From Protonemura montana (lineage: Eukaryota; Arthropoda; Insecta; Plecoptera; Nemouridae): a stretch of 64,000 bases of DNA. The position numbers and the translations under genes were made by a program. The notes below the pieces were generated by a model. The model searched no databases. It saw only the letters and a list, made by a program, of their open reading frames with translations, and had not been told where the DNA came from. The DNA lies in NCBI GenBank assembly GCA_947568835.1, contig OX387610.1:16663050-16727049 (forward strand). The letters run 5' to 3'. Shown piece by piece: positions 11,568 through 37,351 of this stretch; position 1 is the first letter of the stretch; every line of letters starts with the position of its first letter.

Positions 11568-14500
11568 ATGGAAAAACCGAAAGCTTCGTCTTATTTCACG
11601 GCTGAAGAGTGGGAAAACTTTCCTAATTACGAGAAGGTTAGGCTGAACACCAAGCTATCGAACTTCAATAAAATGGCTAAGATGGGTGAGTTATGTTGGA
11701 ATAATAATAATAATCAGTTTTATTTAGCAAAGATAGCCATTTTTAATCATAGCCAGTTAAATACAGCCAGTTATATTGCAGCCATATTTTTGTATATCGA
11801 TTCTTTACACGCAGCTGAAATCCTATTATTCTTTCACATGTTAGTATACAAGTTCACAAGTTTATTCAATTATTGTTTATTGAGGGGAGAACAGGGACAC
11901 TTGTTACACCTTTCATTCTACAACTTTTATCTCATTAAATAAGTTTTTTTTTAATTCTGAAAAAATTCAGGGAGGTTGCCTGAACCTGCAAGCCAGGGTG
12001 CTCTTTTGCCAGGCTTAGATGCGTTGTTATTTTCTGGATGTTTTCCTCTCTGGCAAAGTTTTCTTGTCTTCTAGTCGCAATTTCTTAGTTCTGGGAATTT
12101 CTCCAGCAGCCTCTATCAATCTTTTCCCTGGACTGTCTGTAAAAATGGCAATTATGCCTCTTATTCGCCCTCTGCCACTTGTTATCTTCACAAAATTTGC
12201 CTTTGAGTGTTTAACATTAAACATTGGCGGGATAGCACCACCAATTGATTTCACGGCACAGCAAACGGTTACCGTTGTACACAATCGCACCAACCTGTTT
12301 TAAAACTTTCCCAGCAAAAATTTTGCTGGTGTTTGAACACGTCTGGTCCTAGTTTCGTCAACATTGTATATATTTTGTGGTTAGAATTTAAACCTATCAC
12401 TGCAGCTTCCACGGCAGCTTCCGTTGCCTCCGCCGTAAAGCACCGTGCATAAGTGCATTGTCTGTTCCTCGGCATGTTGACGATGTAATCTGCAAGAATT
12501 ATACAACAGTTTTAAAACAATGTAGTTTGACATCTCCATAGCAACTGCTAAACTACTAAAAATATAAGATAAACTGGTATAAAAAAAAAAAAGGTTAGAG
12601 TTCATTTAGATGAAATGTTATTAAATTGCAACAGCTTGCAATGCACGGGGTATTTTATGATTATAAACAGTATTCATGTCTCAAAACTTGATGCCCAAAC
12701 GGACGATTGAACCAATTTTTGAGACGGTTTTAGTGTTCATAATAATAAAAGGTTAGAGTTCGGCTATCAATATCTAAGACCAAGCCAAATCCTTTTTCTA
12801 TGGAGTTACAATCGTCCCCGGGCAGAGTTGTTGATTCATATCTCAACGTTTAATGTTTGTGAGATGAAGTGACAAATCATTTATACCCAGTGACATTCGT
12901 TAAGAAATACTCTCTCGAAACGTAAAAACCTCAATAAAATAGGAATAATACAATCATACTGAAAACCAAAACCAAGTCAGATGCCAGAAATTTACTTACC
13001 AAACGTCAAAACATTTATTTATAATTCACATGCGCAAGTGACATCTCAGCTGATATCAGCTGGCTGAGTGTTTCATGACAACTAGAGCACTCTATTGTCA
13101 ACTTATGAAAACACTTCGCGCGAAATTTGAAACAGTCGAACAGAAACTGTAGACTCTGTTACAATTGTCCCGTTTTACATTTGTCCCCGTTCACCCCTAC
13201 TTTATATAAAATGGTGGCCACAAACTCAAATGTTACCAAACTATTGTTAGCGGGATTCATGTGTCTCCCCACTCCACTGATAAAATGATCGGGCGAGTCG
13301 CTCGTACGCGCAGTCGGTAGCTACTGGACTTCACTTTCATTGAAACTATTTGTCTGATCGAGAATTTGTCTATCAAAATTATATTTACTGGTGAGATTTC
13401 GACGCTGAAACACGGGCGGAGTTTTTTACTCATTGCAACAACATTAAAAACAATAATTTTATTTATAATATTAGATAAAAAGCCGTTCTTATAATAAAAA
13501 TTAATATTGCCTGTAAGATGTTTGAAAACTTTTTTATATGCCAAGAAAAGTATTTGGATGTAATACAAAATTTCGAATAACTCAACGCTATTACTTCTTG
13601 GGAAAGCGACGGCGACAACAGTAAATTTGTTTTTCCGAGTTTTCCACATATTTCCCTCGGAATAATTGTTTGAGTTTTTAATTAGTGACTCAGCAACACG
13701 TGAGAATAAAACCATTAAAACAGATTTTCTCGAATTTCTTGACCAAGATGATAATTTACTTGAAACTCTTCTCATGTTGGTAACATTGCTTGTAACATTC
13801 TGACATTGCTTTGCGCTATAACTTTCTGCCTTAATTATCAAAAGCGCAGAACTTCTCATATCCAAATAGATTGAAAATTTAGCAACCACTAGAATAAAAA
13901 TACATATCCTTGCATTTTGTAAGGGAACATATAACTCCAACTAAAACTGCACAGAACAAACATTTAATAAACATTAATTATTAGATAAACAACACACAGT
14001 ACGCATGTGATTTTTAATCCAACTTTATTTATTCCGACTGCAGGTTTTAAAATTTCCCTTCCTGACTTTGTTGTGGCTTGGAACAAAAAGGCTAAGTCCA
14101 CCTTGGCCAATCCGAAGCCAGCCAATCAAGACCAGGGCAAGAAGATGGCCTCTGCAACTGAACCAGCGAAGGGACAAAAACGCAAACTTGCTCCGTGCGA
14201 GAGCGAAGACGGAAAGAGAGCCATGCGTGAAAAAGTAGAGACTGTCAGTCAGTACCTAGAATTAGCAGTAAGCACCCAGCCTAATTGCTATGTTGTTGCA
14301 AAATGCATGGACCCCTTGTTTACCCAATTTACTTGCATTTGTTGTATTTCAGAACCAACGGGTCAGCGCCGCCGAAAAGCTGCGGATGCTTGCGCTCTCG
14401 CAGGGCCAAGTATTTCACGGTTTTACGGAAGAAGATGTAGCCAGGTAGGTGGTAATACGAAGACAACAGGGTGCTATTTTGTATAAGTTTGATCGACTGA

Positions 14501-17500
14501 ATGAAATAACTCTTTCCCAACACTCATTAAATCAATTTCCTATTAAATCTAGGTCATAGCACTAAAATATCAAACCAATTGTTATTTATCAGGGTGGGTA
14601 ATATGCATGTAATATTGGAATGCTTTACTAAGGATGATTGAAAATGATGCGATTAACCTTAAGATTATTATAAAAACTAATTGACTAATTGCTAAATAAT
14701 TAAAGACTAATTGGTGATATTTGTGATTGTGACCAGATCCCAAGAGGTGGTGGTGAAACTCAAAGTGTTGCTCAGAACTCTTGAGGTTCAGTTCGAGGCG
14801 GCTTGCGTTGAATACGACGAAGCCAAAGAAGATCTGCGTCGTGAGGAGGAGCGGCTTAATTCACCCCAAGAGAAGGAGCACCAAGCTAGAAACTGTGAGG
14901 GCAGGAAGAATAGAGCCCCTCTTGAGAAGGACCAAACTGTGAAACATGAGGACGGGAGGAATGGTGCCCCTCTTGAAAAGAACGAAGCTGTGAACGGTGA
15001 GGACGGGAGGAAGATAGCCCCCCTGGACAAGGACCAAGCTTTGAACCATGAAGACGGGAGGAAAAGAGCCAACCTTGAGAAGGATCAAGATGAGAACCAT
15101 GAGGACGGGAAGAATGGATCTCCACTTGAAGCTATTCACCACAAGGACGTGGGGAATAACTTCCCTAGCAAGGACGAGCAGGAATCATTATGCTGCGAGC
15201 ATGGCATCGAAGCTAAGCAGGCGGTGGAGGCAGTCGGAGCCATTGGCGGACATTTTAGTGACAACGCCTTGCTGCCCAAGGAGCAAGCACAGGATCAAGA
15301 GGAATCGGAAGCGAGATATCCGCGCCGGAAGCGGTCGGAGGTCAACTATGAGGAGCCGCAACTTCTTGACGAGGACGAGTACCTCTGTAAGTCGACGTAG
15401 TTTCACTGTCAATCCTTGAAGTTCATGTTTAATGTTTCAATGTTACATGTTTAAGTCCATCAAGTTAACAAGGCTAGAACGTCAGTCCAAGTTTTCATTG
15501 GTTTATATTTATTCAACTAACTACTAATTGTACATACCTTCTATGTGCTAGTTTTTCAAACTGATATCATTTTTATAACATTTTAATTGTGTTACTTTAA
15601 TGTGCACAAATGTTTAAGTATGATTACATAATTTTTCAGTCTCCCACCAATTAATATTTTTGGTCAAAGTTTTGTTTCGGATAAAAGTTAAGTTTTGGTC
15701 AAAGTTAACGAGGTTGGTTTTGTTTTTTAGACTGCGATGCGTGCCAAGAAGAACACCAGGGCATGTGTCCAATTCATGGCAAATTGCAGTTCGTAATGGA
15801 TCGTCAGGTGAGTGCATTGATTATAATTGTTGCATTGCATTTTATTGACGTAGCAACAGAATTGAACTTGCTATTGAAAAAGTTCTCACAAAAATTGTGC
15901 ACAGGTTTTTTACTAAAGGTCGAACAAAAGGTAATGGCTTGGCATTAAACCTACTAAAGATACAAGAATCTTTGATGGCGGTTATCAATTTACCACTTAA
16001 TATACGTCGGGTTTTACCAAACTTTGCAACTTTAAGTTGGATCTCTAACTCACAACAACGACTGCATTTCAGTGCATGTGATTGAAAGTCATCATGGCAA
16101 TAGTTCCAACTAACTCTTCAATTAGCAAGATTTTGCTAAAGCCGAAGCTGAGTGGGCTAAAATTTACTCAATCTTTTAACAATGCCCATTTTGACCAATT
16201 CTTGTAAACGCAAATAGACCTGGCTTTGCATCGCTGGCAAGTTGTTCACATTGGTTTGTTGTGTTCACCTGCAGCTTCCGAAGGGCTACAAAGAGCCTGA
16301 CCGAGCCTTGCGCACCCTGCCCCAAGTTCTGGCTGTTGGTGAGTCTAGCATCAAAGACGCCGGTCTCGGGGTTTGGGCTCGTGTCCCGTTGCCAGTGGGA
16401 GTTGTGTTTGGTCCATACGAAGGGAAGCAAACGAGTGTACAGGTCTTTGCCGGGAAGGAATCTTCTGGCTATAGCTGGATTGTAAGTACAATCTCGTGGA
16501 AGGCAGTTTTCTAAAATCTCAATTTGCCGTTTTGCAATCCAATCTCTTTTCTCTGTCCCCTGCTTGGAGCAGATCAGACGCGCTAACAAAGTGGTAGCCG
16601 AAATGGATGCGGCTGACAGCTCCAAGGCCAACTGGATGCGCTATGTTAACTGTGCGACTATAAAAACACAACAAAACATAATGCCGTTCCAAGTAAGTCA
16701 TCCTCCAAACCTGCAGCATTGAGTTTATATGCATAGTCAGAGGACCAGGGACAATGTTATACTTTATGCTGAGTAAACGAGCTAGCTTCACCCTTGCCAC
16801 GCTTGCTGCTGTCATTTTGATCAAACCTAAAAATTTACAAAATTACAACTCAAAACATCGCCACATATTTATTATTCGTTGAGGTTAGCATTCATCAAGA
16901 TTAACTGAGTGTAAACCAGTCTCAAATGCGATTAATTTGCGAGAAATAACGAAATTAAATGTCTTAACACTCGAAACGACGGTGACTCCACCTGGCGGCA
17001 TCTAACATTTTAGTTGTTAAAGAAGTCATTTGACTGCCATTTCTCACGAAGAAAGTTTAACATTAGCGCTATGACACAATCCTGCATCCAAGTTGTGCAC
17101 CAGCCTGTGTAGGTGACAACGCATGCTACTAGTTCCAGGGTCGTCTCTATTACCGTACCGTGCGTGATGTGCCGGCCCACACAGAGCTGATGGTCTACTA
17201 CGGTGACAGCTACGCCCGTCAGCTGGGGATTAACACCCGTGCATTCCATAGTGGGGCTGTTTCGCTTGTCCAGCGTGAGTCTTTGACTAGAAACACGCTG
17301 CTTCTTGTTATATTTTGCACTCATATTTATTGATAGATTGAATGTAGACAGAATTTTACTAAATTAATCCTAGGAATTAAGAAAAAATACCCGAACTATG
17401 ATATCCAAGAGTTAGGATGAAATGTAGTGAATGAGAGTTTATCTGCAAAGATCAGGATTAGTAGGATTGACCTTATATAAAAGCCTAAATCCGTTGCTAA

Positions 17501-19674
17501 GCTTCAAAATAGTTTGTGACTGGCTAGGATGTCTCATTGCACTAAATCTTTATAGAAATCGTGAAATTTGGTCGAAAACGCCTGCTAGATCGGTTCGTTT
17601 TTTGGGTTCACATCCAGTTGTGGCATTTTCACGGCCATCGATCAGGTTTTGCAGGTGAAATGTTGCAAATTAACAAAAAAACTTACGGAAAATGTCCGAC
17701 AATTATGCATTTTTCACCATTGAATTCGTAGCGCGTAGCAACGGAATAATTTGTAGCGTAGCAACCGAAATCTCAATTTGATTGCAACCTTGAGCTCTGA
17801 ATTTCCGTTGCTACGCTACGAAAAGGTTGGCAAAAAGATCTTATCTGAGGAACTGAAATTGCTGAACTGAATGTTCTGAAATTGCTGAACTGAATGTTCT
17901 GAAATTGCTGAACTGAATGTTCTGAAATTGCTGAACTGAATGTTCTGAAATTGCTGAACTGAATGCTCTGAAATTGCTGAACTGAATGTTCTGAAATTGC
18001 TGAACGGAATGTTCTGAAATTGCTGAACTGAATTTTCTGAAATTGCTGAACTGAATGTTCTGAAATTGCTGAACTGAATGCTCTGAAATTGCCGAACTGA
18101 ATGTTCTGAAATTGCTGAACGGAATGTTCTGAAATTGCTGAACTGAATGTTCTGAAATTGCTGAACTGAATGTTCTGAAATTGCTGAACTGAATGTTCTG
18201 AAATTGCTGAACTGAATGTTCTGTAATTGCTGAACTGAATGTTCTGAAATTGCTGAACTGAATGTTCTGAAATTGCTGAACTGAATGTTCTGAAATTGCT
18301 GAACTGAATGTTCTGAAATTGCTGAACTGAATGTTCTGAAATTGCTGACCTGAATGTTCTGAAATTGCTGAACTGAATGTTCTGAAATTGCTGAACTGAA
18401 TGTTCTGAAATTGCTGAACTGAATGTTCTGAAATTGCTGAACTGAATGTTCTGAAATTGCTGAACTGAATGTTCTGAAATTGCTGAACTGAATGTTCTGA
18501 AATTGCTTAAATCAACTCAAATTTATACATCACTCTTATCTGTCACCAACACATGGCAGCTGCGTACACAGCGGGTGGGTCTACTAGTTTATCTTTTATA
18601 AACTCGATCCTACTTTCTTTAACCATAGCAATCGTTTTCTAAAATAGTATTTTAAACTTGATTTCTAAACGGTAAGATAAATATTGAAGAAATTTATTAC
18701 ATTCATGGACATTAGTAAAGAGAAAAGAAAAAATAATTTAATTTTTACTTCGCATGAAAAGTCCCGGCATTAAAACATTGTTTTGAGATCAGGACCCTTG
18801 AATGCATGCCGGTAAAATCAGGACTGTCATCTAAACTGCTACAAAATACTGTCCTGACTCCATGTCTCTTGCAGCGACCATCTTTCCTTGCTCTAACTGC
18901 AAGTTGGGGTTTACAAGCCCGATCCCACGCGACAGTCACGAGCGTCTGTTTTGCCGGCAACGGAGTTTCAAGGAGCCCGTGAGGACGGCGCTCACCCACT
19001 TTGAGCCGCTGCTGAAGAAGGTCCCTGCCGCTTTCGAGATCAGTTCCACGCTGAACGAGTCGGGGCCTGAGGGGAAGAAGCGGTTCAAGTGTGGGGAATG
19101 CAACTATTCTACAGACTACAGCGGCCATTTTAAACAACACTTGGTGACTCACACGGGACAGCGTAGCTTTGCCTGCACGTTTTGTTCTTACAAAGCAACA
19201 CGGAAGGGCAGCTTAAAGCGTCATCTCATGACGCATGGGAACGACAAGCCCCACGAATGCACTGAGTGCAGTTACCGTACATCTCAGAAGGGAAGTCTTG
19301 TAACCCACATGCGGATTCACACCGGAGAGAAGCCTTTCCAGTGCAAGCTCTGTAGTTATGCAACAAATTATAGCAGTGCCTTGACTAGCCACGTGCGTAG
19401 ACATCATACAAAGGAGCGACGTTTTGGCTGCTTGCAATGTTCTTACACTTGTGTGACAAGCAGCCATCTTACCCATCACATGCTCACCCATAGCGGGGTG
19501 AAGAAGTTGTCCTGTCCGGAATGCAGTTACAAGTGCAACCATACTGGAAGCTTGAAGTTACACATGTCCGTTCACCACGGAGCTGAGAAGAGACTCGGGT
19601 GTCAGCTCTGCAAGTTCAGGTGTAACTACTCCCAGGACCTGAAGAAGCACGTCGCCGCCAAGCACTCGGACTAG
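11568..19674 (+). CDS. PRDM9: PRDM9-like histone methyltransferase zinc-finger protein, gene A
   Basis: Exons: 11568-11685, 14044-14267, 14353-14444, 14737-15386, 15731-15807, 16275-16481, 16573-16692, 17139-17274, 18875-19674. All introns are GT-AG and phases agree (1,0,2,1,0,0,0,1), giving 807 aa. Domains: KRAB-like 8-50 (SYFTAEEWENFPNYEKV); Lys-rich linker; 17-aa repeat within exon 4; SSXRD-like about 336-363 (NYEEPQLLDEDEYLYC); zinc knuckle CDAC...C..H; PR/SET 388-535 with GPYEG, SGYSWI, NWMRYVNCA and YYGDSYARQLGI; CxxC knuckle near 546; seven C2H2 fingers 612-805. This order is that of PRDM9, which trimethylates H3K4/K36 at finger-bound sites and marks meiotic break sites in vertebrates. 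The start is the first Met after the acceptor at 11552, right before the KRAB-like domain. Role here is inferred from the domains; an arthropod paralogue with another role is possible. Confidence 0.9.
12027..12395 (-). pseudogene. Pogo-type (DDE_1) transposase fragment in intron 1, copy A
   Basis: On the minus strand, frames give IYNVDETRTRRVQTPAKF, KVLKQVGAIVYNG, VTVCCAVKSIGGAIPPMF and GIIAIFTDSPGKRLIEAAGE. These match in order the DDE_1 transposase of pogo/jerky-type elements (NVDETG, VQ.P.K, KQVG, TVCCAVNA.G..IPPMF, late LTDTP). Frames shift and the central catalytic part is deleted, so it is a relic. The related sequence in copy B is 30290-30660. Confidence 0.75.
13197..13722. other. Copy-A-specific segment in intron 1
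   Basis: About 520 bp present between CGTTCACCCC and GATTTTCTCGAATTTC in copy A but absent from copy B, where these flanks join at 31434-31440. Either an insertion in A or a deletion in B; no terminal repeats that I can identify. Confidence 0.6.
14880..15140 (+). repeat. PRDM9: 51-bp coding repeat in exon 4 of gene A (17 aa, about 5 units)
   Basis: In-frame units of the type VNHEDGRNGAPLEKDQA, charged and likely disordered, between the coiled N-terminal part of exon 4 and the SSXRD segment. Five units including a divergent first and last one. Gene B has eight, and exon 4 differs between the genes by exactly 153 bp, three units. Confidence 0.9.
17850..18510 (+). repeat. 23-bp minisatellite in the last intron of gene A, about 29 units
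   Basis: Tandem units CTGAAATTGCTGAACTGAAT plus GTT, with rare point variants, in the intron between the last SET exon and the finger exon. Gene B carries about 16 units at the same place. Confidence 0.95.
18875..19674 (+). other. PRDM9: Zinc-finger exon of gene A (seven C2H2 fingers)
   Basis: A single terminal exon holds a CSNC...H...C knuckle and seven CxxC-x12-Hx3-4H fingers. Contact residues (-1,2,3,6): F1 Y,G,H,Q; F2 R,G,S,R; F3 Q,G,S,T; F4 Y,S,A,S; F5 T,S,H,H; F6 H,G,S,L; F7 Y,Q,D,K. Linkers are irregular (TGQRS, GNDKP, TGEKP, TKERR, SGVKK, GAEKR) and the fingers are not near-identical repeats as in mammals, so the array is old and not freshly expanded. Confidence 0.9.
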
Positions 19675-19820
19675 GACCATTATTCTGCTACATTTTCAAA
19701 TTTTGCTGTTATTGTGAACCAAAAGATGTCCCATGCTAAACTTACATACCTTATCCTAAGTAGAAAAAAAAACGATGTCAAAGATACACAAATTCACGTT
19801 AGTGTTAATTATTATTCACA

Positions 19821-19826
19821 AATAAA
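19821..19826 (+). terminator. Possible polyadenylation signal of gene A
   Basis: AATAAA 147 bp after the stop codon. In gene B the corresponding hexamer is AATGAA (37498-37503 region), and a later AATAAA at 37660-37665 would have to serve. Confidence 0.4.
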
Positions 19827-20848
19827 TAGGGATAAATATAATGCAAGCTAGTAGTTGCATTGCTTAACAGCGATTAGAAGATGACATATCAGAAATATTG
19901 TAGAAGCGCAAATTGTAAGTTGGCTAATGATAGACACCTGGCATTTGACAGCTAGAATCAAAGATTGTAGACAAAAATAGTAAATAAACCAAAGGATATT
20001 AATTGTATACTTGATAAATATGGATTTTCTTAAGAGGAGTAATTTCAAACATGAATATCAGCAAGCGCGTTTTCTCCTTTTAACCCACAAAATTATGCTG
20101 GATAATCTATATTTAAGTGCTGATACCAACCATTAATAAACACTGGTTAACTCTGGAAATGATTAGACGTCACCTGCTGTAGTTTACTCCTTGTTCCCTA
20201 CTTTAAGTAAGAGTGAAGCTTATTCCAAGTTAGGTCTGTTACTCACTTTAGAAATGTATTACAAAAGCTACTTTATTCCTAAGATTAAGCCTAAGATTAA
20301 AATTAAGCCATTCCTAAGATGGAAGTTTAAGGATTTTGTGAAACGGCTTCAAATAAAAATGTATCTTCGATTTCTGATTGCATTTCATGATATTTTTGTA
20401 TTTTATGGTGACCCAGGCCCGGAATCAAATTCGGGAACATAATTTCTGCCTCAGCTTCGAAGCAAGCAAGTTACCAATGAGTCACGCGATGCCCTGGTAA
20501 TTATGTCGTCTATGTTGATTGTGTTGTACAAGTATTCTGTTTGAAACATACTCTTGGTTAACTGCTTTTCAACATGTTGAGGAATTTATTATCAAACATG
20601 TGATGCAATTTGTCTCTTATAATTAATTCAAGTCGCCTCTATAAAGAAAAAAAAGCGGTCTGACCAGGATTTGAATTCGGACCGTCGAAGTTTGCTAGTT
20701 GAGAAGCGACCAATCAAAGCAGAGCCATCGAGACGAAGAGTGGAGTGGAAATCCAAATCAGAGTGGAAATAACGAAATATTCAAGATTCTTCCATTTACA
20801 ATCCATTTACCATTAGGAATTTTTTTATTAACCTATAAAAGTTTTTGA

Positions 20849-21318
20849 GAGATCAACGAAGTTAAGCAACACTGCGCTGGGTTAGGTATTGGATGGATGA
20901 CCACCGAACGGTTTGGCGTGTTGTAAACGCCGGTCCTCGTAAGATCACTGAAGTTAAGACACTGCACTGAGTCAGGTATTGGATGGGTGACCATCATACA
21001 CATGACCAGTTCTGTTCGGGAGAGAGGTTGGAGGGATGAAAGTTAAGCAACACTGCGCTGGGTCAGGTATTGGATGTGTGACCATCATACACATGACCAG
21101 TTCTGTTCGGGAGAGAGGTTGGAGGGATGAAAGTTAAGCAACACTGCGCTGGGTCAGGTATTGGATGGGTGATCATCATACACATGACCAGTTCTGTTCG
21201 GGAGAGAGGTTGGAGTGATGAAAGTTATGCAATACTGCTCCGGGTCAGGTATTGGATGGGTGACCATCATACACATGGCCAGTTCTGTTTTGGGAGAGAG
21301 ATTGGAGGGATGAAAGTT
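20849..21318 (+). repeat. 5S rRNA-derived 91-bp tandem array, forward, copy B
   Basis: Begins with a longer 5S-like segment including the 3' end (GGTTTGGCGTGTTGTAAA region), then a second with GGTCCTCGTAAGATCACTGA, then units spaced exactly 91 bp (for example 21040 and 21131). Each has box A-like and box C-like 5S motifs. Confidence 0.8.
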
Positions 21319-21328
21319 ACAAAAAAAC

Positions 21329-24621: not shown

Positions 24622-24625
24622 GTAT

Positions 24626-25479: not shown

Positions 25480-26440
25480 AACCCTGGTAATACTGTCAGT
25501 AGCATCGTGCTAACTAGCACCACCATAGCACCAAGCAGTGACCCTGGTATTACTGTCAGTAGCACCATGCTAACTAGCACCACCATAGCACTAAGCAATA
25601 AACCAAACCTAGAGCGGTGATTCGTAACCCTGGTATTACTGTCAGTAGCACCGTGCTAACTAGCACCACCATAGCACCAAGCAGTGACCCCGACCTAGAG
25701 CGGTGTTTCGTAACCCTGGTATTGCTGTCAGTAGCACCGTGCTAACTAGCACCACCATAGCACCAAGCAGTGACCCTGGTATTACTGTCAGTAGCACCGT
25801 GCTAACTAGCACCACCATAGCACCAAGCAGTGACCCTGGTATTACTGTCAGTAGCACCGTGCTAACTAGCACCACCATAGCACCAAGCAGTGACCCTGGT
25901 ATTACTGTCAGTAGCACCGTGCTAACTAGCACCACCATAGCACCAAGCAGTGACCCTGGTATTACTGTCAGTAGCACCGTGCTAACTAGCACCACCATAG
26001 CACCAAGCAGTAACCCTGGTATTACTGTCAGTAGCACCATGCTAACTAGCACCACCATAGCACCAAGCAGTAACCCTGGTATTACTGTCAGTAGCACCAT
26101 GCTAACTAGCACCACCATAGCACCAAGCAGTAACCCTGGTATTACTGTCAGTAGCACCGTGCTAACTAGCACCACCATAGCACCAAGCAGTGACCCTGGT
26201 ATTACTGTCAGTAGCACCGTGCTAACTAGCACCACCATAGCACCAAGCAGTGACCCTGGTATTACTGTCAGTAGCACCGCGCTAACTAGCACCACCATAG
26301 CACCAAGCAGTGACCCTGGTATTACTGTCAGTAGCACCGTGCTAACTAGCACCACCCTAGCACCAAGCAGTGACCCTGGTATTGCTGTCAGTAGCACCGT
26401 GCTAACTAGCACCACCATAGCACCAAGCAGTAACCCCGAT
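25480..26440 (+). repeat. 60-bp minisatellite, copy B (about 15 units in three blocks)
   Basis: Same 60-bp unit as 8342-8764. Blocks of two (25480-25600), one (25620-25690) and about twelve (25712-26440) units are separated by copies of the CCGACCTAGAGCGGTG boundary sequence, showing that the boundary was itself duplicated. Confidence 0.9.
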
Positions 26441-26774
26441 CTAGAACTATGATTTGTAACCCTGGTATTACTTTCAGTGGTATCGTGGTACAACAACCAA
26501 ATTACCGCTCTTGGTCAGTGCCCCTGGTTTTTTTGTACCTGCATTGTACCCGGCATGTTTGTGCGTGTATTATTCCCTCAATTTATAGATTATAAATATA
26601 ATAAATGAAATAAAGTACAATATGATGTTTTACTGTATGTTTTGCCTGTAGAATGGCTAAGTACTGGCTGAATTGACTGTATTAATTAAACAATTGTTAG
26701 TTTCTTAAATTATTTGCACTGAAATTCTTCGATCATGTTTATCTCGATATCTGCAAATTGAAGAAGGTGCTTGC

Positions 26775-27250
26775 CATAGTTGGGGAGGATCGTTTTGAAA
26801 TCGATCTTTATAAAAGGTCAAGATCATTTAAAAGAAAGTTTCAAAAAAAAATCATGTTATCTCTGAAAAAAATGTATTTGTTTAGCACCTATAGCCTTGG
26901 TGCTGGGAAATGCAATATTAATATGGAAATAGTAGGAACACAATGCAATGAGGACTATGACTTGAAGTCAAGAAAACAAGGAGAAATATAACAGCCTGTT
27001 AACACTTAATAGGAACTAAAATGCCTTGCACAACAGACAGTGGGTAGTGGAACATGGCAGAAAGTGGGCCTTGAATCTCGATGTCCCAATTTGAGAAAAG
27101 CTGCAGTCAGGGACAGGCACGGTGGACAAACGATCTTTTAAAAGATCGTGGAAAATCCGAAAGCGATGAAATAAAAAGATCGTTTAGTACAAAAAGATTT
27201 CGATCAGTTCGAAGATCACTAAAAAAGATTGTGATCATACACTGTGTACA
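26775..27250 (+). mobile_element. Truncated hAT-related element, copy B
   Basis: Counterpart of 9104-9600, starting CATAGTTGGGGAGGATCG, with the same GATC-rich motifs and no right terminal repeat. Confidence 0.65.
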
Positions 27251-27489
27251 CGTTGTACAAGTAATTTCTGAATTAATTTTAGAGCGTACCTAACCTGGCT
27301 GAATACAAAATAAAAAACCATGACACTTGCACATAACAGCTGTTTCTTCACGCTAGGGTTCCCCAATTCAATTTCAAAGTTTGTTTGTATTATTATTTTA
27401 GCTGCTAGAATTTTGTTTTCTGATGGCTGCTTTGAAGCATTGTTTGTATTGCACTTGCATCAAACTGCAGGCCAATGCTTTAATGTCAA

Positions 27490-27610
27490 TTCGCAGGGCA
27501 TTTTATTGTTATGAACAATCCTACCTTCTTAAAAATGCATGTCCAAACGGAGACTTGAACCCCGATCTCCACCTATCGCAGGTGTTGCTCTAATCCATAG
27601 AGCTACTTGA
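27490..27610 (-). mobile_element. tRNA-derived SINE, copy B
   Basis: Counterpart of 9840-9965, with GAACCCCGATCTCCACC on the plus strand (B-box region reversed). Confidence 0.65.
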
Positions 27611-28104
27611 ACACATGTATTTTGAGATTATTTTAGTATATTTTACTGTGAGTACTTACAGCCTCTTAGTTTTACCCCATGGAGATCCGTCATTCTCATC
27701 TGTCATCCCCGTTTGGGTCTCAATTTTTTATATGTTCATGTATGATATGTATGATATGTTCATAAGATTAAAAAAAAAATTATTTACATTTTTTAAACTC
27801 ATTTTTTTACATTATTTGTAATTAACAATTTAAACTTCATGAAATTGTGCACAATATCTTGACCAATAAACCATCCATTACCTACTTTAGCTCTAAAGTT
27901 TGAAATAACCATGGAGCAAAGAGATACAAGTCAAAACAACAACTAAATAAATGCAGAGATAATAATTGTAGAACTATGGTAAACATAGAAATAAAAAGCA
28001 GATATAAAAGCAAGAATAAATCTAAAGTTTGAAATTTTGCAAGTTTTTTAAGATAATAAACTAAAAATATTACGTAAAGTAAATATTTAGCCATACTCTA
28101 ACAA

Positions 28105-28189
28105 ATGAGCTATTGTGACTCGTACAGTCTTTATAGGCGGCCATTTCGCAAATATACGAAAAACAATTTGTTCGAACTCACGGAAAAAG
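28105..28189 (+). promoter_or_regulatory. PRDM9: Putative promoter and 5' UTR exon of PRDM9-like gene B
   Basis: Counterpart of 10470-10551 with TCTTTATAGGCGGCCATTTC and donor-like G|GTAAGA at 28190. Conserved between copies more tightly than the surrounding AT-rich DNA, as judged by eye. Confidence 0.4.
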
Positions 28190-29203
28190 GTAAGACTTTT
28201 TCAGAATATATTGAGTTAAAAGACATGTAAGGATAATTTTTCGCTGTACAAGCCTTGTTTATTCCTTACTGCAAAATAATTTAATGTTTAATTCATGTAT
28301 GAAGTCGATTTTCGATAATCTAATGATATGGTCTGTGACTAGCCAGGGTCTAGGCCTAGAACTGGGCTAGGCAATGATACACCATATGAATATAATTAAC
28401 GGAAATTTGATAAAAATATTATTTTCAATAATAGCTTGCAAATACTCCATACGTAAGCCAACTAGCTGGTAGAATTAATCACATTTTACACAGATTTAAG
28501 TAACTAAATTTAACAAATACCATTATGCTTGGTCTAAACCAAGTTGCAAATGTTGAGCAAACTACTGGATCAAATAACATAATATCCCTTAAATCTTGAA
28601 AGTGTATGAAATTACAAATCCAGTCAAAATAAAAAGAGCATTGAGGATTATTTTATTAAAATCGTGCAACTTTTTTAATTTGTAATTATTTAAAAATTAA
28701 TCCAAACTAAGATTACTGGTATCAGCTAGCTATAGAAACAAAAGAATAACCATCGGTGGCTGGACTGATCTCTCCAACCAAATAAAAAATTCTAGAACCC
28801 AGAATATTTTTGACACACCTCTGTATATGCCCTTCTTAATTTTACAATCATTCTTAGGAATCAAATTCATGTAATATGTTTGTCCAATCTGGAAATGTAC
28901 CTAACTTAGGATTTTTTGCTGCCGTTGAAATCAGCTACCTCTCATCTTTTACTTAAAACAATTTGTACCCAAACAGATAGAGCCAATAAAATAATAAGGT
29001 TTGCTCAGGTAAATTCAGGTTCCAATCACTATTGTCACAGATTAAATTGTAAAAGTAAAACTTTCTGATATTTTATTAAAGCTGCTAAAGATGTAATGCA
29101 CATTATTAAATGTTTTTCTAAAAATAAAAAAACCCTATTATTTAATTCCTATAAAACACATACCAATACTTTGTTTCTTTTGACAGTGATTTACGACTGA
29201 AAT

Positions 29204-32200
29204 ATGGAAAAACCAAAAGCTTCGTCTTATTTCACGGCTGAAGAGTGGGGAAACTTTCCTATTTACGAGAAGGTTAGGCTGAACACCAAGCTATCGAACT
29301 TCAATGAAATGACTAAGATGGGTGAGTTTTGTTGGAATAATAATAATAATCAGTTTTATTTAGCAAAGATAGCCATTTCATATCATAGCCATTAGATTTA
29401 AATACAGCCAGTCATATTACAGCCATATTTGTGTATATCGATTCTTTACACGCAGCTGAAATCCTATTATTCTATCACATGTTAGTACACAAGTTTACAA
29501 GTTTATTCAATTATTGTTTATTGAGGGAAGAACAGGGACAATTGTAACACCATTCATTCTACAACTTTTATCTCAGTAAATAATTTTTTTAATTCTTAGA
29601 AAATGCAGGGAGGTTGCCAGAACCTTTTACCCACTTTACTTTTTATTGCACATTTGAGAAAATGAGGAAAATCCATGTCGGATACAACTGTTTCAGCTGT
29701 TCCCTTATCAGGGTCAATTACTAAATTGCTAGTACATTACTAGTACTGCAATTGACTACGATACTAAATTGTAAATAATGACAAAGGTGTGGAAATAGCA
29801 AGAATAATAATAATAATAATTTAATTGCAGTATACTGTGTTATATGATAAACTTCGTCAACTTAAAATAAATAAAATCAACTATTAATATAATGTACCTT
29901 CATAACACCACCAATGTAATATATCTGGTTATAGTCAGCCCAAAGGTAGAGCTCATTTTCTATTAAAAACAATTGAACTTACCTTTAAAATATTTTGAGG
30001 CTGTTGTCTTTAATAAGTACATTAATAAAAGTTAATTGTGAACTACAAGTTAATAGTATAGTACGTTACAATTTAACATTTCTATTTGCATTGATGGCAA
30101 ACATACATTTTCTTGGCTGGAATGCGAGATGCATGGGACCAACCTTTGCATGCAGAACACTGAAGCCAAGATTCTTTGTCTTTACTATCTGAACATCTTT
30201 CATTGCAGAGTAGGCAAGAGATATCTGTAATTCAATCTTGTGCTCTTTTGCCAGGCTTAGATGCGTTGTTCTTTTTTGGGTTTTTCCACACTGGCAAAGT
30301 TTTCTTTTTTTTCTTTTAGTCGCAATTTCTTAGTTCTGGGAATTTCTTTGGCAGCCTCTTTCAATCTTTTCCCTGGACTGTCTGTTAAAATGCTAATCTT
30401 GCCTCTGATTCGGCCACTGACATTTGTTACCTTCGCAAAATTTGCCTTTGGGTGTTAAACATTAAACATTGGCGGGATAACGCAACCAACTGAATTCACG
30501 GCACAGCAAACAGTTACCGTTGTACACAATCACACCAACCTGTTTCATGACTTTCCCAGCAACAACTTTTGTTGGTGTTTGGACAGGTCTAGTCCCAGTT
30601 TCGTCAACATTGTATATATTTTGTGGTTAGAATTTAAACCTATCACGGCAGCTTCCACGGCATTTTCCGTTGCCTCCGCTGTAAAGCACCGTGCATAAGT
30701 GCATTGTCTGTTCCTCAGCATGTTGCTGATGTAATCTGCAAGAATTATACAACAGTTTTAAAACAATGTAGTTTGACATCTCAATAGCAACTGCTAAACT
30801 ACTAAAAATAAAAGATAAACTGGTATAAAAAAGAAAGGTTAGAGTTCATTTAGATGAAATCTTATTTAAGTGCAAACGCTTGCAATGCACGGGGTATTTT
30901 ATGATTATGAACAGTATTCATGTCTCAAAAATTGTAACCCAAACGGGCGATTGAACAAATTTTGAGACAGTTTTAGTGTTCATAATAATAAAAGGTTAGA
31001 GTTCAGCTATCAATATCTAAGACCAAGCCAAATCCTTTTTCTATGGAGTTACAATCGTCCCCGGGCAGAGTTGTTGATTCATATCTCAACGTTTAATGTT
31101 TGTGAGATGAAGTGACAAATCATTTATACCCAGTGACATTCGTAAAGAAATACTCTCTCGAAACGTATAAACCTCACTAAAATAGGAATAATACCATCAT
31201 ACTAAAAACCAAAAGAAATCAGATGCCAGAAATTTACTTACTATTCGTCAAAACATTTATTTATCATTCACATGCTCAATTGACATCTCAGCTGATATCA
31301 GCTGGCTGAGTGTTTCATGACACCTAGAGCGCTCTATTGTCAACTTATGAAACCACTTCGCGCGAAATTTGAAACAGTCGTACAGAAACTGTAGACTCTG
31401 TTACAATTGTCCCGTTTTACAATTGTCCTCGTTCACCCCCGATTTTCTCGAATTTCTTGACCAAGATGATAATTTACTTGAAACTCTTCTCATGTTGGTA
31501 ACATTGCTTGTAATATTCTGACATTGCTTTGCGCTATAACTTTCTGCCTTAATTATCCAAAGCGCAGAACTTCTCATATCCAAATAGATTGTAAATTAGC
31601 AACCACTAGAATAAAAATACATATCCTTGCATTTTGTAAGGTTTCATATAACTCCAACTAAAACTGCACAGAACAAACATTCAATAAACATTAATTATTA
31701 GATAAACAACTTACAGTACGCATGTGATTTTTAATACAACTTTCTTTATTCCGACTGCAGGTTTTAAAATTTCCCTTCCTGACTTTGTTGTGGCTTGGAA
31801 CAAAAAGGCTAAGTCCACCTTGGCCAATCCGAAGCCAGCCAATCAAGACCAGGGCAAGAAGATGGCCTCTGCAACTGAACCAGCGAAGGGACAAAAACGC
31901 AAGCTTGCTCCGTGCCAGAGCGAAGACGGAAAGAGAGCCATGCGGGAAAAAGTAGAGACTGTCAGTCAGTACCTAGAATTAGCAGTAAGCACCCAGCCTA
32001 ATTGCTATGTTGTTGCAAAATGCATGGACCCCTTGTTTACCCAATTCACTTGCATTTGTTGTATTTCAGAACCAACGGGTCAGCGCCGCCGAAAAGCTGC
32101 GGATGCTTGCGCTCTCGCAGGGCCAAGTATTTCACGGTTTTACGGAAGAAGATGTAGCCAGGTAGGTGGTAATACGAAGACAACAGGATGCTATTTTGTA

Positions 32201-35200
32201 TAAGTTTGATCGACTGAATGAAATAACTCTTGCCCAACACTAAATAAATCATCTTCCCATTAAATCTAGGTCATAGCACTAAAATATCATACCAATTGTT
32301 ATTTATCAGGGTGGGTAATATGCATGTAATATTGGAATGCTTTACTAAGGATGATTGAAAATGATGCGATTAACCTTAAGATTATTATAAAAACTAATTG
32401 ACTAATTGCTTAATAACTAAAGACTAATTGGTGATATTTCTGATTGTGACCAGATCCCAAGAGGTGGTGGTGAAACTCAAAGTGTTGCTCAGAACTCTTG
32501 AGGTTCAGTTCGAGGCGGCTTGCGTTGAATACGACGAAGCCAAAGAAGATCTGCGTCGTGAGGAGGAGCGGCTTAATTCACCCCAAGAGAAGGAGCACCA
32601 AGCTAGAAACTGTGAGGGCAGGAAGAATAGAGCCCCTCTTGAGAAGGACCAAACTGTGAACCATGAGGACGGGAGGAATGGTGCCCCCCTTGGGAAAGAA
32701 AAAGCTCTGAACCGTGCGGACGGGAGTAAGAGAGCCCCACTTTGGAAGGACCAAGCTGTGAACTGTGCGGACGGGAGGAAGATAGCCCCCCTGGACAAGA
32801 TCCATGCTCTGAACCGTGAGGACGGGAGGAAGATAGCCCCCCTGGACAAGGACCATGCTCTGAACCGTGCGGACGGGAGGAAGATAGCCCCCCTGGACAA
32901 GGACCATGCTCTGAACCGTGAGGACAGGAGGAATAGAGCCCCTCTTGAGAAGGACCTAGCTGTGAACTCTGTAGACGGGAAGAATGGTTCTCCACTCGAA
33001 GCTATTCAGCACAAGGAAGTGAGGAATAACTTTCCTAGCATGGACGAGCAGGAATCATTATGCTGCGAGCATGGCATCGAAGCTAAGCAGGCGGTGGAGG
33101 CAGTCGGAGCCAGTGGCGGACATTTTAGTGACAACGCCTCGCTGCCCAAGGAGCAAGCACAGGATCAAGAGGAATCGGAAGCGAGATATCCGCGCCGGAA
33201 GCGGTCGGAGGTCAACTATGAGGAGCCGCAACTTCTTGACGAGGACGAATACCTCTGTAAGTCGACGTAGTTTCACTGTCGATCCTTGAAGTTCATGTTT
33301 AATGTTTCAATGTTTCATGTTTAAATCCATTAAGTTAACAAGGCTAGAACGTCAGTCCAAGTTTTCATTGGTTTATATTTATTCAACTAACTACTAATTG
33401 TACATACCTACTATGTGCTAGTTTTTATATTATATTATTATAATATATTAATATTATATTACTTATATTATTTTTATAACATTTTAATTGTGTTATTTAA
33501 ATGTGGACAAATGTTTAAGTATGATCACATAATTATTCAGTCTCCCCACCAATTATTATTTTTTGTCAAAGTTAGCGTCATTAGTTTCTGATGAAAGTTA
33601 AGTTTTGGTCAAAGTTAACGAGGTTGGTTGTGTTTTTTAGACTGCGATGCGTGCCAAGAAGAACACCAGGGCATGTGTCCAATTCATGGCAAATTGCAGT
33701 TCGTAATGGATCGTCAGGTGAGTGCATTGATTATAATTGTTACATTGCATTTTTTTGACGTTGCCTCCTTCCAAGCAACAGAACTGAACTTGCTATTGAA
33801 AAAGTTTTCACAAAAATTGTGTATAGGTATTTTTCCAAAGGTCGAACAAAAGGTTATGGCATGGCATTAAACCTACTAAAGATACAAGAATCTTGAATGG
33901 CGGTTATCCATTGACCACTTAACATACGTCGGGTTTTATAAAACTTTGCAACTTTAAGTTGGATCTCTAACTCACAACAACGACTGCATTTCAGTGCATG
34001 TGATTGAAAGTTATCATGGCAATAGTTTAAACTAACTCTTCAATTAGGAGGCAAGATTTTTCTAAAGCCGAAGCTGAGTGGGCTAAAATTTACGCAATCT
34101 TTTAACAATGCCCATTCTGATCAATTCTTGTAAACGCATATAGACCTGGCTTTGCATCGCTGGCAAGTTGTTCACATTGGTTTGTTGTGTTCACCTGCAG
34201 CTTCCGAAGGGCTACAAAGAGCCTGACCGAGCCTTGCGCACCCTGCCCCAAGTTCTGGCTGTTGGTGAGTCTAGCATCAAAGACGCCGGTCTCGGGGTTT
34301 GGGCTCGTGTCCCGTTGCCAGTGGGAGTTGTGTTTGGTCCATACGAAGGCAAGCAAACGAGTGTACAGGTCTTTGCCGGGAAGGAATCTTCTGGTTACAG
34401 CTGGATCGTAAGTTCAGTCTCGTGGAAGGTAGTTTTCTGAAATCTCAATTTGCCGTTTTGCAATCCAATCTCTTTTCTCTGTCCCCTGCTTGGAGCAGAT
34501 CAGACGCGCTAACAAAGTGGTAGCCGAAATGGATGCGGCTGACAGCTCCAAGGCCAACTGGATGCGCTATGTTAACTGTGCGACTATAAAAACGCAACAA
34601 AACATAATGCCGTTCCAAGTAAGTCATCCTCCAAACCTGCAGCATTGAGTTTATATGCATAGTCAGAGGACCAGGGATAATGTTATACTTTATGCTGAGT
34701 AAACGAGCAGGCTACACCCTTGCCACGCTTGCTGCCGACATTTTTATCAAACCTAAAAATTTACAAAATTACAACTCAAAACATCGCCACATATTTATTA
34801 TTCGTTGAGGTTAGCATTCATCAAGATTAACTGAGTGTAAACCAGTCTCAAATGCGATTAATCTGCGAGAAATAACGAAATTAAATGTCTTAACACTCGA
34901 AACGACGGTGACTCCACCTGGCATCATCTTACATTTTAGTTGTTAAAGTAGTCATTTGACTGCCATTTCTCACGAAGAAAGTTGACTGCCATTTCTCACG
35001 AAGAAAGTGTAACATTAGCGCTATGACACAAGCCTGCATCCAAGTTGTGCACCAGCCTGTGTAGGTGACAACGCATGCTACTAGTTCCAGGGTCGCCTCT
35101 ATTACCGTACCGTGCGTGATGTGCCGGCCCACACAGAGCTGATGGTCTACTACGGTGACAGCTACGCCCGTCAGCTGGGGATTAACACCCGTGCATTCCA

Positions 35201-37351
35201 TAGTGGGGCTGATTCGCTTGTCCAGCGTGAGTCTTTGACTAGAAACACGCTGCTTCTTGTAATATTTTGCACTCATATTTATTGATAGATTGAATGTAGA
35301 CAGAATTTTACTGAAGTAATCCTGGAAAATATGATAAAAATACCCAAACTATGATATCCAAGAGTTAGGATGAAATGTAGTGAATGAGATTTTATCTGCA
35401 AAGATCAGGATTAGTAGGATTGACCTTAAATAAAAGCCTTAATCCGTTGCTAAGCTCCGAAATAGTTTGTGACTGGCTAGGATGTCTCATTGCACTAAAT
35501 CTTTATAGAAATCGTGAAATTTGGTCGAAAACGCCTGCTAGATCGGTTCGTTTTTTGGGTTCCCATCCCGTTGTGGCATTTTCACGGCGATCGATCAGGT
35601 TTTGCAGGTGAAATGTTGAAAATTAACAAAAAAATCTACGGAAAATGTCCGACAACAATGCATTTTTCACCATCGAATTCGTAGCGCGTAGCAACGGAAT
35701 AATTTGAAGCGTAGCAACCGAAATCTCAATTTTATTGCAACCTTGAGCTCTGAATTTCCGTTGCTACGCTACGAAAAGGTTGGCAAAAAGATCTTATCTG
35801 AGGAACTGAAATTGCTGAACTGAATGTTCTGAAATTGCTGAACTCAATGTTCTGAAATTGCTGAACTGAATGTTCTGAAATTGCTGAACTGAATGTTCTG
35901 AAATTGCTGAACTGAATGTTCTGAAATTGCTGAACTGAATGTTCTGAAATTGCTGAACTGAATGTTCTGAAATTGCTGAACTGAATGTTCTGAAATTGCT
36001 GAACTGAATGTTCTGAAATTGCTGAACTGAATGTTCTGAAATTGCTGAACTGAATGTTCTGAAATTGCTGAACTGAATGTTCTGAAATTGCTGAACTGAA
36101 TGTTCTGAAATTGCTGAACTGAATGTTCTGAAATTGCTGAACTGAATGTTCTGAAATTGCTGAACTGAATGTTCTGAAATTGCTTAAATCAACTCAAATT
36201 TATACATCACTCTTATCTGTCACCAACTCATGGCAGCTGCGTACACAGCGGGTGGGTCTACTTGTTTATCTTTTATAAACTCGATCCTACTTTCTTTAAC
36301 CATAGCATTCGTTTTCTAAAATACGAATTTAAACTTGATTTCTAAACGGTAAGAAAAATATTGAAGAAATTAATTACATTCATGGATAGTAGTAAAGAGA
36401 AAAGAAAAAATAATTTAATTATTGCTTCGCATAAAAAGTCCCGGCATTAAAACATTGTTTGGAGATCAGGACGCTTGAATGCATGCCGATATAATCAGGA
36501 CTGTCATCTAAACTGCTACAAAATACTGTCCTGACTCCATGTCTCTTGCAGCGACCATCTTTCCTTGCTCTAACTGCAAGTTGGGCTTTACAAGCCCGAT
36601 CCCACGCGACCGTCACGAGCGTCTGTATTGCCGACAACGGAGTTTCAAGGAGCCCGTGAGGACGGCGCTCACGCACTTTGAGCCGCTGCTGAAGAACGTC
36701 CCTGCCGCTTTTGAGATCAGTTCCACGCTGAACGAGTTGGGGCCTGAGGGGAAGAAGCGGTTCAAGTGTGGGGAATGCAACTATTCTACAGACTACAGCG
36801 GCCATTTTAAACAACACTTGGTGACTCACACGGGACAGCGTAGCTTTGCCTGCACGTTGTGTTCTTACAAAGCAACACGGAAGGGCAGCTTAAAGCGTCA
36901 TCTCATGACGCATGGGAACGACAAGCCCCACGAATGCACTGAGTGCAGTTTCCGTACATCTCAGAAGGGAAATCTTAAAACCCACATGCGGATTCACACC
37001 GGAGAGAAGCCATTCCAGTGCAAGCTCTGTAGTTATGTAACAAATCGAAGAGGTGCCTTGACTCGCCACGTGCGTAGTCGTCATACAAAGGAGCGTTGTT
37101 TTGGCTGCTTGCAATGTTCTTACACTTGTGTGACAAGCAGCGATCTTACCCAACACATGCTCACCCATAGCGGGGTCAAGAAGTTGTCCTGTCTGGAATG
37201 CATTTACAAGTGCAACCAGACTGGAGACATGAAGAAACACATGTCCGTTCACCACGGAGCTGAGAAGAGACTCGTGTGTCAGCTCTGCAAGTTCAGGTGT
37301 AACTACTCCCAGGACCTGAAGAAGCACGTCGCCGCCAAGCACTCGGACTAG
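29204..37351 (+). CDS. PRDM9: PRDM9-like histone methyltransferase zinc-finger protein, gene B
   Basis: Exons: 29204-29321, 31761-31984, 32070-32161, 32454-33256, 33641-33717, 34201-34407, 34499-34618, 35091-35226, 36552-37351. All splice sites and phases match gene A, giving 858 aa; the extra 51 residues are three more 17-aa units in exon 4. KRAB-like, SSXRD, knuckle and PR/SET parts are as in gene A. In SET exons 6-8 I count seven nucleotide differences from gene A, one changing the protein (GAV to GAD near the end of exon 8). The finger exon differs at 25 residues. No stop, frameshift or splice loss is visible, so both copies may be active. Fingers occupy residues 663-856. Confidence 0.9.
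30290..30660 (-). pseudogene. Pogo-type transposase fragment in intron 1, copy B
   Basis: Diverged counterpart of 12027-12395 at the same intron position; frames are more broken. Confidence 0.65.
32597..33002 (+). repeat. PRDM9: 51-bp coding repeat in exon 4 of gene B (17 aa, 8 units)
   Basis: Eight in-frame units; the central ones (LNREDGRKIAPLDKDHA type) are nearly identical, showing recent expansion, while the outer units match gene A. Confidence 0.9.
35806..36184 (+). repeat. 23-bp minisatellite in the last intron of gene B, about 16 units
   Basis: Same unit and position as 17850-18510, with fewer and more uniform units. Confidence 0.95.
36552..37351 (+). other. PRDM9: Zinc-finger exon of gene B (seven C2H2 fingers)
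   Basis: Same seven-finger layout as gene A. Contact residues (-1,2,3,6): F1 Y,G,H,Q; F2 R,G,S,R; F3 Q,G,N,T; F4 R,G,A,R; F5 T,S,D,Q; F6 Q,G,D,K; F7 Y,Q,D,K. Fingers 1, 2 and 7 keep the gene A contacts; fingers 3-6 differ at nine contact positions, predicting a different DNA target. Confidence 0.9.

Follow-up and report, generated by a model that had tools for sequence, protein, structure and literature searches.

The stonefly Protonemura montana carries, within the 64,000-nucleotide stretch of DNA analysed here (the window), two complete genes that are by their sequence true PRDM9. In mammals PRDM9 sets where chromosomes recombine. We judge it probable, at about 0.6, that these genes and their relatives function as a PRDM9 system that specifies where meiotic recombination occurs and has diversified partly through gene duplication. 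The first-pass annotation had proposed a tandem pair in a probable arthropod. Mitochondrial COX3 identifies the animal as a stonefly and, of 15 rows compared, is closest to a capniid. The pair proved too small a description: 12 nine-exon copies lie on one contig and a 24-finger relative on another.

Gene structure and domain identity

The two genes were rebuilt from the window sequence (copy 1, 11568-19674; copy 2, 29204-37351; Table 1) and are spaced 17.6-17.7 kb apart. As claimed from the first reading, both are intact: each has nine exons, GT-AG ends at 8 of 8 introns, continuous phases and a single terminal stop, and the predicted proteins are 807 and 858 aa long. The domain order in both is KRAB-like, SSXRD, zinc knuckle, PR/SET and seven canonical C2H2 fingers, and we read one post-SET finger-like motif as preceding the array in each. 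The nearest nine-exon copy upstream, L011, has an in-frame stop, and its end at C13:16662497 lies 553 bases upstream of the window.

Table 1. Positions of gene parts, repeats and duplicated sequence in the window.
Feature	Position	Strand	Evidence
Third copy of sequence downstream of both genes' stop codons	3270..4650	+	93.8% to 19678-20575, 89.8% to 37355-38699
Duplicated stretch around copy 1	7630..20902	+	Self-blastn, pairs with 24787-38699; larger pieces 89-95% identical
Copy 1 exon 1, start codon and KRAB-like domain	11568..11685	+	Phase-0 start, GT donor; KRAB profile
Copy 1 exons 2 (14044-14267) and 3 (14353-14444), end of KRAB-like domain and linker	14044..14444	+	AG/GT junctions, phase
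Copy 1 exon 4, linker; SSXRD at 3' end	14737..15386	+	SSXRD profile 21.7 bits
In-frame 51-bp (17-aa) repeats, copy 1 exon 4 linker	14896-15129		
Copy 1 exon 5, zinc knuckle (pre-SET)	15731..15807	+	C, C, C, H ligands aligned to human PRDM9
Copy 1 exons 6 (16275-16481), 7 (16573-16692) and 8 (17139-17274), PR/SET	16275..17274	+	PF21549 112 bits; PDB PRDM9 142.8 bits; Y276, Y341, Y357 present
23-bp minisatellite, 28.5 units, intron 8 of copy 1	17853..18507	.	
Copy 1 exon 9, post-SET finger-like motif, seven C2H2 fingers, stop codon	18875..19674	+	
Duplicated stretch around copy 2	24787..38699	+	Self-blastn, partner of 7630-20902
Copy 2 exon 1, start codon and KRAB-like domain	29204..29321	+	KRAB profile 28.5 bits (protein)
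Copy 2 exons 2 (31761-31984) and 3 (32070-32161)	31761..32161	+	
Copy 2 exon 4, linker with 51-bp repeats (32597-32988); SSXRD at 3' end	32454..33256	+	
Copy 2 exon 5, zinc knuckle	33641..33717	+	
Copy 2 exons 6 (34201-34407), 7 (34499-34618) and 8 (35091-35226), PR/SET	34201..35226	+	PF21549 112 bits; tyrosines present
23-bp minisatellite, 16.5 units, intron 8 of copy 2	35806..36184	.	
Copy 2 exon 9, post-SET finger-like motif, seven C2H2 fingers, stop codon	36552..37351	+	

The identity proposed earlier was borne out by the SET region. In a comparison with PDB sequences its top match was human PRDM9 (142.8 bits, E 9.3e-41), against 96.5 bits for PRDM11 and 65.4 or less for other PRDMs. Identity to the human protein over the knuckle and SET is about 44-45%, and the catalytic tyrosines Y276, Y341 and Y357 are conserved in 13 of 13 genes (the 12 copies on the window's contig, C13, and the C12 gene). 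The tyrosine of a GYSW motif was considered as Y276 and dropped because its spacing was wrong; Y276 is the tyrosine of FGPYEG. A tree of 33 SET rows, the check that had been suggested, placed the window copies among PRDM9 proteins and not outside the PRDM7/9/11 group. The arthropod rows lay weakly on one side of a branch (42/84; 57% of 200 bootstrap trees), and PRDM11 clustered with vertebrate PRDM9.

The Pfam KRAB and SSXRD models did not reach threshold in the window copies, with no Pfam KRAB match at E<=1, so profiles were made from database homologs instead, that for KRAB from 97 aligned KRAB stretches of non-arthropod proteins. With whole proteins the KRAB profile gave 29.9 bits (E 6.5e-8) for copy 1 and 28.5 bits for copy 2. 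Over 1377 ORFs of the window the two KRAB exons came top (23.1 and 22.4 bits), the next ORF scoring 6.4, and when the first 60 residues were shuffled 2000 times the best score was 16.5 bits. The SSXRD profile gave copy 1 21.7 bits and copy 2 21.5 bits, with E near 3e-5; the shuffle control covered the KRAB stretch. Together with PF21549 and the PDB match, these profiles uphold the full architecture. Modern KRAB zinc-finger genes have a Pfam-type KRAB and no SET, and the window genes have SET; nor do they show the loss of KRAB and SSXRD and the changed tyrosines of fish PRDM9-beta.

Copy number and selection

The 12 nine-exon copies on C13 span one 1.1-Mb region of the 17.8-Mb contig; 10 are fully open. 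The finger exon is 800 bases long and encodes seven fingers in all 12, and the ten open copies have nine different contact fingerprints. The array of the C12 gene contains 17 full units with a mean identity of 92%, 27 of the 136 unit pairs being identical. This minisatellite-like pattern was not seen in the seven-finger window copies.

Variation in the finger exon is concentrated where DNA would be contacted. Amino-acid differences among the 12 copies fall in 24 of the 28 codons at positions -1, 2, 3 and 6, compared to 36 of the remaining 237 codons of exon 9 (Fisher P 5e-14), and synonymous variation has no such excess (2/28 against 27/237). Parsimony counts at contact codons were 78 N and 7 S on the exon-9 tree (dN/dS 2.8, P 0.002) and 94 N and 7 S on the SET-exon tree (dN/dS 3.4, P 0.0002); for positions -1, 3 and 6 alone the exon-9 tree gave a borderline P of 0.057. 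The knuckle and SET exons, counted within the C13 copies, gave 11 N and 35 S (dN/dS 0.09, P 2e-14). Several forks of these paralog trees are poorly supported, and conversion between paralogs violates the assumption of a single tree. The counts indicate purifying selection on the SET exons and diversifying change at the DNA-contact residues. The KRAB exon is weakly constrained among copies (12 N and 6 S, 11 of 12 copies).

Diversity lies mainly between the C13 paralogs and less between the fingers of one array. There was no sign of concerted evolution within the short arrays: in three tested copies, contact sites hold 0.23-0.26 of the diversity within one array, where their length would give 0.19; even among the tandem fingers of the C12 gene the within-array share is just 0.28.

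A putative recombination system and its alternatives

As we envisage it, the stonefly PRDM9 proteins would be nuclear and expressed in the germline, and their C2H2 arrays would bind chosen DNA motifs. The intact PR/SET domain would methylate nucleosomes near the bound motif, depositing H3K4me3 and H3K36me3, and a ZCWPW-like protein may read these marks. The marked sites would then serve recombination, with meiotic double-strand breaks made and repaired where PRDM9 is bound. A candidate reader was identified at C2:15984483 from two exons joined across an intron, one with a zf-CW domain (45 bits) and the next with the start of a PWWP (27 bits). The CW piece has its best PDB match in ZCWPW1 (40 bits), followed by ZCWPW2 (31.6) and MORC3 (31.0); the PWWP piece aligns with positions 1 to 26 of the 93-position profile, and its top PDB matches are NSD2 and HDGF-type proteins. 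In vertebrates, losses of ZCWPW1 and ZCWPW2 are reported to be coupled to losses of PRDM9 (PMC8892340). A TEX15 model found no match in the genome and none in the controls, and is uninformative; the PR and zf-CW models had 0 matches in 14 control genomes, which hence provide no test of those searches. The selection pattern and the ZCWPW-like gene raise the likelihood of a role in recombination.

Most likely the C13 copies add binding specificities, ten open short-array copies standing beside the 24-finger gene on C12. We can entertain, only tentatively, the fuller proposal that about ten short-array paralogs with different motifs and the one long-array gene direct recombination together. If that were true, hotspot motifs would arise via duplication and divergence of paralogs, not solely through turnover of the array, and the presence of many motif classes per meiosis would soften hotspot erosion.

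Families of KRAB and ZAD finger genes diversify in clusters. The C13 family resembles such an expansion in its 12 copies, its uniform seven-finger exon and its diversity between, not within, arrays, and it could be that only the C12 gene specifies recombination while the C13 copies, the window pair included, are recruited regulators, acting for example against transposons. Contact-site selection is also described in transposon-silencing finger genes (PMC6116924). We nonetheless consider this division unlikely, since the SET exons are constrained like those of an active enzyme and all three tyrosines are present. H3K4me3 is not known as a silencing mark. The C13 copies also retain the full KRAB-SSXRD-SET architecture, unlike fish PRDM9-beta, for which loss of KRAB/SSXRD and tyrosine changes are reported (PMC5519329).

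It is improbable that the C13 copies arose by recent segmental duplication, are largely redundant and are on the way to decay, and that only the C12 gene matters. A stop or frameshift in 2 of the 12 copies, fragments on C4 and other parts of C13, and the near identity of some copies fit such a history; the 10 open copies do not, and the deficit of N changes in the knuckle and SET is unexpected for decaying duplicates. That haplotype copies were set in tandem by the assembly is very improbable: L014 and L015 do have finger exons identical in protein, but 61 of 66 copy pairs differ by 4-11% over aligned DNA (means that include tandem-repeat matches), the copies occur in both orientations and at different spacings, and the number of exon-4 repeats differs between them.

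Relation to other PRDM9 genes

The recombination system that we favour shares with vertebrate PRDM9 (human, mouse, salmonids) its KRAB-like, SSXRD, knuckle and PR/SET domains with the three tyrosines, a finger array in a single last exon, diversifying contact residues and a ZCWPW-like gene in the genome. It differs in its many copies within one region, its fixed seven-finger arrays, diversity that lies more between paralogs than between fingers, and the 17-aa linker repeats. In ruminants duplicate PRDM9 genes are likewise under positive selection at -1, 3 and 6, with three copies reported (PMC5351255) compared to 12 nine-exon copies and one long-array gene in the stonefly.

The first-pass annotation was right about the architecture and overstated its rarity outside vertebrates. 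Proteins with the same domain order from thrips, termite, cockroach and penaeid shrimp (P0005, P0006, P0007, P0008, P0128) were already public as database predictions. Of 12 arthropod rows, 9 match the KRAB profile at E<1e-6; the shrimp row has a weaker SSXRD match (E 0.04), and the four insect rows are 44-50% identical to the window copies in the SET region. The literature searched gave no analysis of copy number or selection for these proteins. Outside the arthropods, Prdm9 with fast-evolving fingers and concerted evolution is described in a sea anemone, a gastropod and a polychaete, with positive selection in the sea anemone and at one polychaete codon, and Prdm9 is reported there as lacking in Drosophila (PMC2779102, 2009); full-length Prdm9 is reported from many metazoans (PMC11703093, 2025). 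Among the matches listed, which were titles and abstract starts of published open-licence papers, there was no report of a full-length or multi-copy PRDM9 in an insect. What is new is the diversified multi-copy family, arthropod PRDM9-like proteins being already in databases.

PRDM9 control has been regarded as missing from insects. Honeybee maps have been called consistent with no PRDM9-like mechanism in insects, in a study that describes PRDM9 as a derived vertebrate state (PMC4406589). Complete insect genes with the selection signature of PRDM9, accompanied by a ZCWPW-like gene, allow a direct test, in an insect whose genome measures 258 Mb, of whether PRDM9-directed recombination dates back to the ancestor of animals. 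The 12-copy family, in which a single genome would carry many specificities, would likewise offer a natural setting in which to test the hotspot paradox.

Isolated, fragment-like pieces of the genes were also seen: lone SET exon-7 copies at 0.757 and 0.908 Mb of C13, KRAB exons at C13:743833 and at three C4 sites, a lone exon 2 at C13:16429252, and finger-exon pieces near C13:16290120.

Structure and identity of the two window genes

The first-pass annotation described two tandem PRDM9-like genes, and an independent rebuild from the window's own splice signals gave the same coordinates and architecture. Each gene has nine coding exons, with all introns GT-AG, phases unbroken and a single terminal stop, and both lie in tandemly duplicated DNA at a spacing of 17.6-17.7 kb. 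Pfam recognises the PR domain (112 bits) and the C2H2 fingers; its own KRAB and SSXRD models reached no match in either gene. A KRAB profile was therefore built from an alignment of 97 KRAB stretches in non-arthropod homologs, and gave 29.9 bits (E 6.5e-8) for copy 1 and 28.5 bits for copy 2. Run over 1377 window ORFs, it ranked the two KRAB exons first (23.1 and 22.4 bits; third, 6.4), and the maximum over 2000 shuffles was 16.5 bits. SSXRD scored 21.7 and 21.5 bits, the shuffle control having been made for KRAB only.

Against solved structures, the knuckle-SET region scored 142.8 bits with PRDM9, 96.5 with PRDM11 and at most 65.4 with other PRDMs. PRDM9 identity also survived a SET tree of 33 rows and 169 columns, in which the genes are not placed outside the PRDM9 group. 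The window copies form a single group (support 100/99) with a relative on contig C12. Arthropod rows fall weakly on one side of a branch (42/84; 57% of 200 bootstrap trees), and vertebrate rows group at 96/100 with PRDM11 joining the vertebrate PRDM9 rows. Branches are long for PRDM2, PRDM11, the acoel and two sponge rows, and the tree gives no resolution among invertebrate lineages.

Coordinates of the features (C2, C4, C12 and C13, contigs of the assembly; the window is C13:16663050-16727049)
Feature	Position	Detail
Copy 1	window 11568-19674	807 aa
Copy 2	window 29204-37351	858 aa
Exon 4 in-frame coding repeats, 51 bp (17 aa)	window 14896-15129; 32597-32988	copy 1; copy 2
Full-length finger exons	C13, 15.65-16.74 Mb	12 copies
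Lone KRAB exon	C13:743833
Lone SET exon 7	C13, 0.757 and 0.908 Mb	two copies
Lone exon 2	C13:16429252
Partial PRDM9 (L021)	C4:279901-289900	exons 8 and 9 only; three lone KRAB exons on same contig
Long-array gene	C12:4937018-4943643	1433 aa
Another SET-bearing PRDM-like gene (L029)	C12:10475001-10485000	PRDM9-similar exon breaks; NWMRYVNPA instead of NWMRYVNCA
zf-CW match	C2:15984483-15984587
tRNA	window 9887-9959	Rfam
tRNA-Ser	window 27539-27613	ARAGORN
5S-like	window 4651-4771; 20903-21021	41.4; 38.2 bits (Rfam cut-off 38)
91-bp tandem arrays	window 5531-6064; 20951-21319; 22163-23151; 63066-63432	both orientations
CCTAA runs	window 24637-24651; 24680-24699
Open frame	window 40716-41660	314 aa
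Altered recurrence of its C-terminal end	window 62744-63104 (minus)	near window end
71-bp satellite	window 43780-60086	~230 copies, 98% matches
52-bp tandem repeat	window 60796-62461	32 copies

The family on C13 and its relative on C12

Mitochondrial COX3 marks the genome as that of a stonefly: the gene, read in the invertebrate mitochondrial code from the first 1500 bases of contig C34 (15,885 bases), had Apteroperla tikumana, a capniid, as its best match among the 120 listed (93% over 94% of the query; 92% over 223 aligned columns). The top 17 of these bear the names of stonefly genera, and an orthopteran comes 18th. In a 16-row tree, with 15 rows chosen from those 120, it joins Apteroperla at 99/96.

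The genome (258,480,905 bases, 34 contigs) was searched with the finger exon of copy 2, giving 38 matches. Twelve were full-length, all on C13; the remainder were one partial match on C4, one diverged match on C12 along with the array units there, and short pieces. Exon projection found nine exons with AG/GT signals in all 12 copies, exon 1 of locus L018 sitting in L035. Ten copies are open throughout; in L011 a stop falls inside finger 6, and the frame of L012 is broken by an exon 1 one base short. The finger exon is exactly 800 bases with seven fingers in every copy (the stop-bearing finger counted), and exon 4 ranges from 599 to 1007 bases in steps of whole 51-bp units. The KRAB exon gave 16 matches, ie the 12 copies, one elsewhere on C13 and three on C4.

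The C12 gene follows the same nine-exon plan and is fully open. It encodes 24 fingers, 18 of a tandem 87-bp type, and in one finger the first cysteine is replaced by arginine; three four-finger blocks appear, on our reading, to repeat. The 17 full units have a mean nucleotide identity of 92%, with complete identity in 27 of the 136 pairs, and at no codon do they vary synonymously alone. Judged by its sequence, this is a PRDM9-like minisatellite array. Over exons 5-8 its synonymous-site difference from four C13 copies is 0.52-0.58.

All 13 genes (the 12 C13 copies and the C12 gene) retain the four knuckle ligands and have tyrosine at the positions of human Y276, Y341 and Y357, the residues by which Baker and others judged catalysis (PMC5519329).

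Selection on the contact residues

Of the 28 contact codons (finger positions -1, 2, 3 and 6), 24 differ in amino acid among the 12 C13 copies, vs 36 of the 237 remaining codons of exon 9 (Fisher P 5e-14), with no contact-site excess of synonymous variation (2/28 vs 27/237, P 0.75). Counted by parsimony with nonsynonymous steps kept to a minimum, contact codons gave 78 nonsynonymous and 7 synonymous changes on the exon-9 tree (dN/dS 2.8, P 0.002); with the SET-exon tree the numbers were 94 and 7 (3.4, P 0.0002). Positions -1, 3 and 6 alone gave P 0.057 and 0.012, respectively. On the same two trees dN/dS was 0.88 and 0.79 for other finger codons, and 0.17 and 0.19 for non-finger exon 9. The knuckle and SET exons showed 11 nonsynonymous and 35 synonymous changes (dN/dS 0.09, P 2e-14), and the KRAB exon 12 and 6 (11 of 12 copies). 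All these counts are non-independent because of related copies, weakly supported trees and gene conversion, and the safer statement is the contrast of contact codons with SET and with synonymous sites.

The ten open copies carry nine distinct contact fingerprints (L014 and L015 have the same one), with a mean difference of 12.1 of 28 residues. The contact positions hold 0.60 of amino-acid diversity across orthologous fingers (10 of 12 copies), vs 0.19 expected by length, but only 0.23-0.26 within single arrays of the three C13 copies tested and 0.28 in the C12 tandem fingers. Diversification has therefore been mainly between paralogs.

Proposed pathway, precedents and other features of the window

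The zf-CW search gave a single match in the genome; control genomes gave none, and hence provide no test of the search. Completed across an intron, the CW domain scores 45 bits and is followed by a PWWP start (27 bits, covering 26 of the 93 profile positions). Its nearest solved CW domain is that of ZCWPW1 (40.1 bits), ahead of ZCWPW2 (31.6) and MORC3 (31.0); the PWWP piece itself best matches NSD2 and HDGF-type proteins. ZCWPW1, which co-evolves with PRDM9, is recruited to the sites of PRDM9 (PMC7494361), and vertebrate losses of PRDM9 are coupled to losses of ZCWPW1/ZCWPW2 (PMC8892340). A CW-PWWP gene in one PRDM9-bearing insect would lend independent support to a PRDM9-type pathway.

Most likely, each PRDM9 protein would bind a motif through its fingers and methylate H3K4 and H3K36 on flanking nucleosomes, so marking the sites for meiotic breaks, and the CW-PWWP protein would read the double mark in repair. 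The sequence shows the architecture, open frames, selection and partner exons; expression, activity and meiotic use are inferred steps. In the main rival reading the C12 gene, with its long array, would alone direct recombination, the C13 family, with its diversified contact residues, having been recruited elsewhere.

PRDM9-like proteins with the same domain order are already in public databases for Frankliniella, Cryptotermes, Diploptera and Penaeus, and a significant KRAB profile match is absent in three of 12 arthropod rows (one thrips, two spiders). In the account of Oliver and others, Prdm9 evolves fast in a cnidarian, a gastropod and a polychaete and is missing from Drosophila (PMC2779102); many metazoans have full-length copies according to a salmonid paper (PMC11703093). 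The ruminant gene, like the stonefly family, is multi-copy (PMC5351255). A honeybee study took insects to be without PRDM9 control (PMC4406589), and searches of titles and passages in the open-licence literature gave no account of an insect with full-length or multi-copy PRDM9. What is new is an insect family of 12 PRDM9 copies with conserved catalytic and diversified contact residues, together with a long-array relative.

Downstream of the PRDM9 units lies the 71-bp satellite, which has a GC content of ~61% and a strong AT skew. The 314-aa frame, for which no Pfam model scored above its cut-off, is perhaps a mobile element gene. The insect telomere repeat is TTAGG, and the short CCTAA runs are consistent with it. 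The 91-bp arrays adjoin the 5S-like sequences and may be derived from 5S rRNA. To us the 52-bp unit resembles a stretch of tRNA internal promoter, as if a piece of a tRNA-derived SINE had been amplified.
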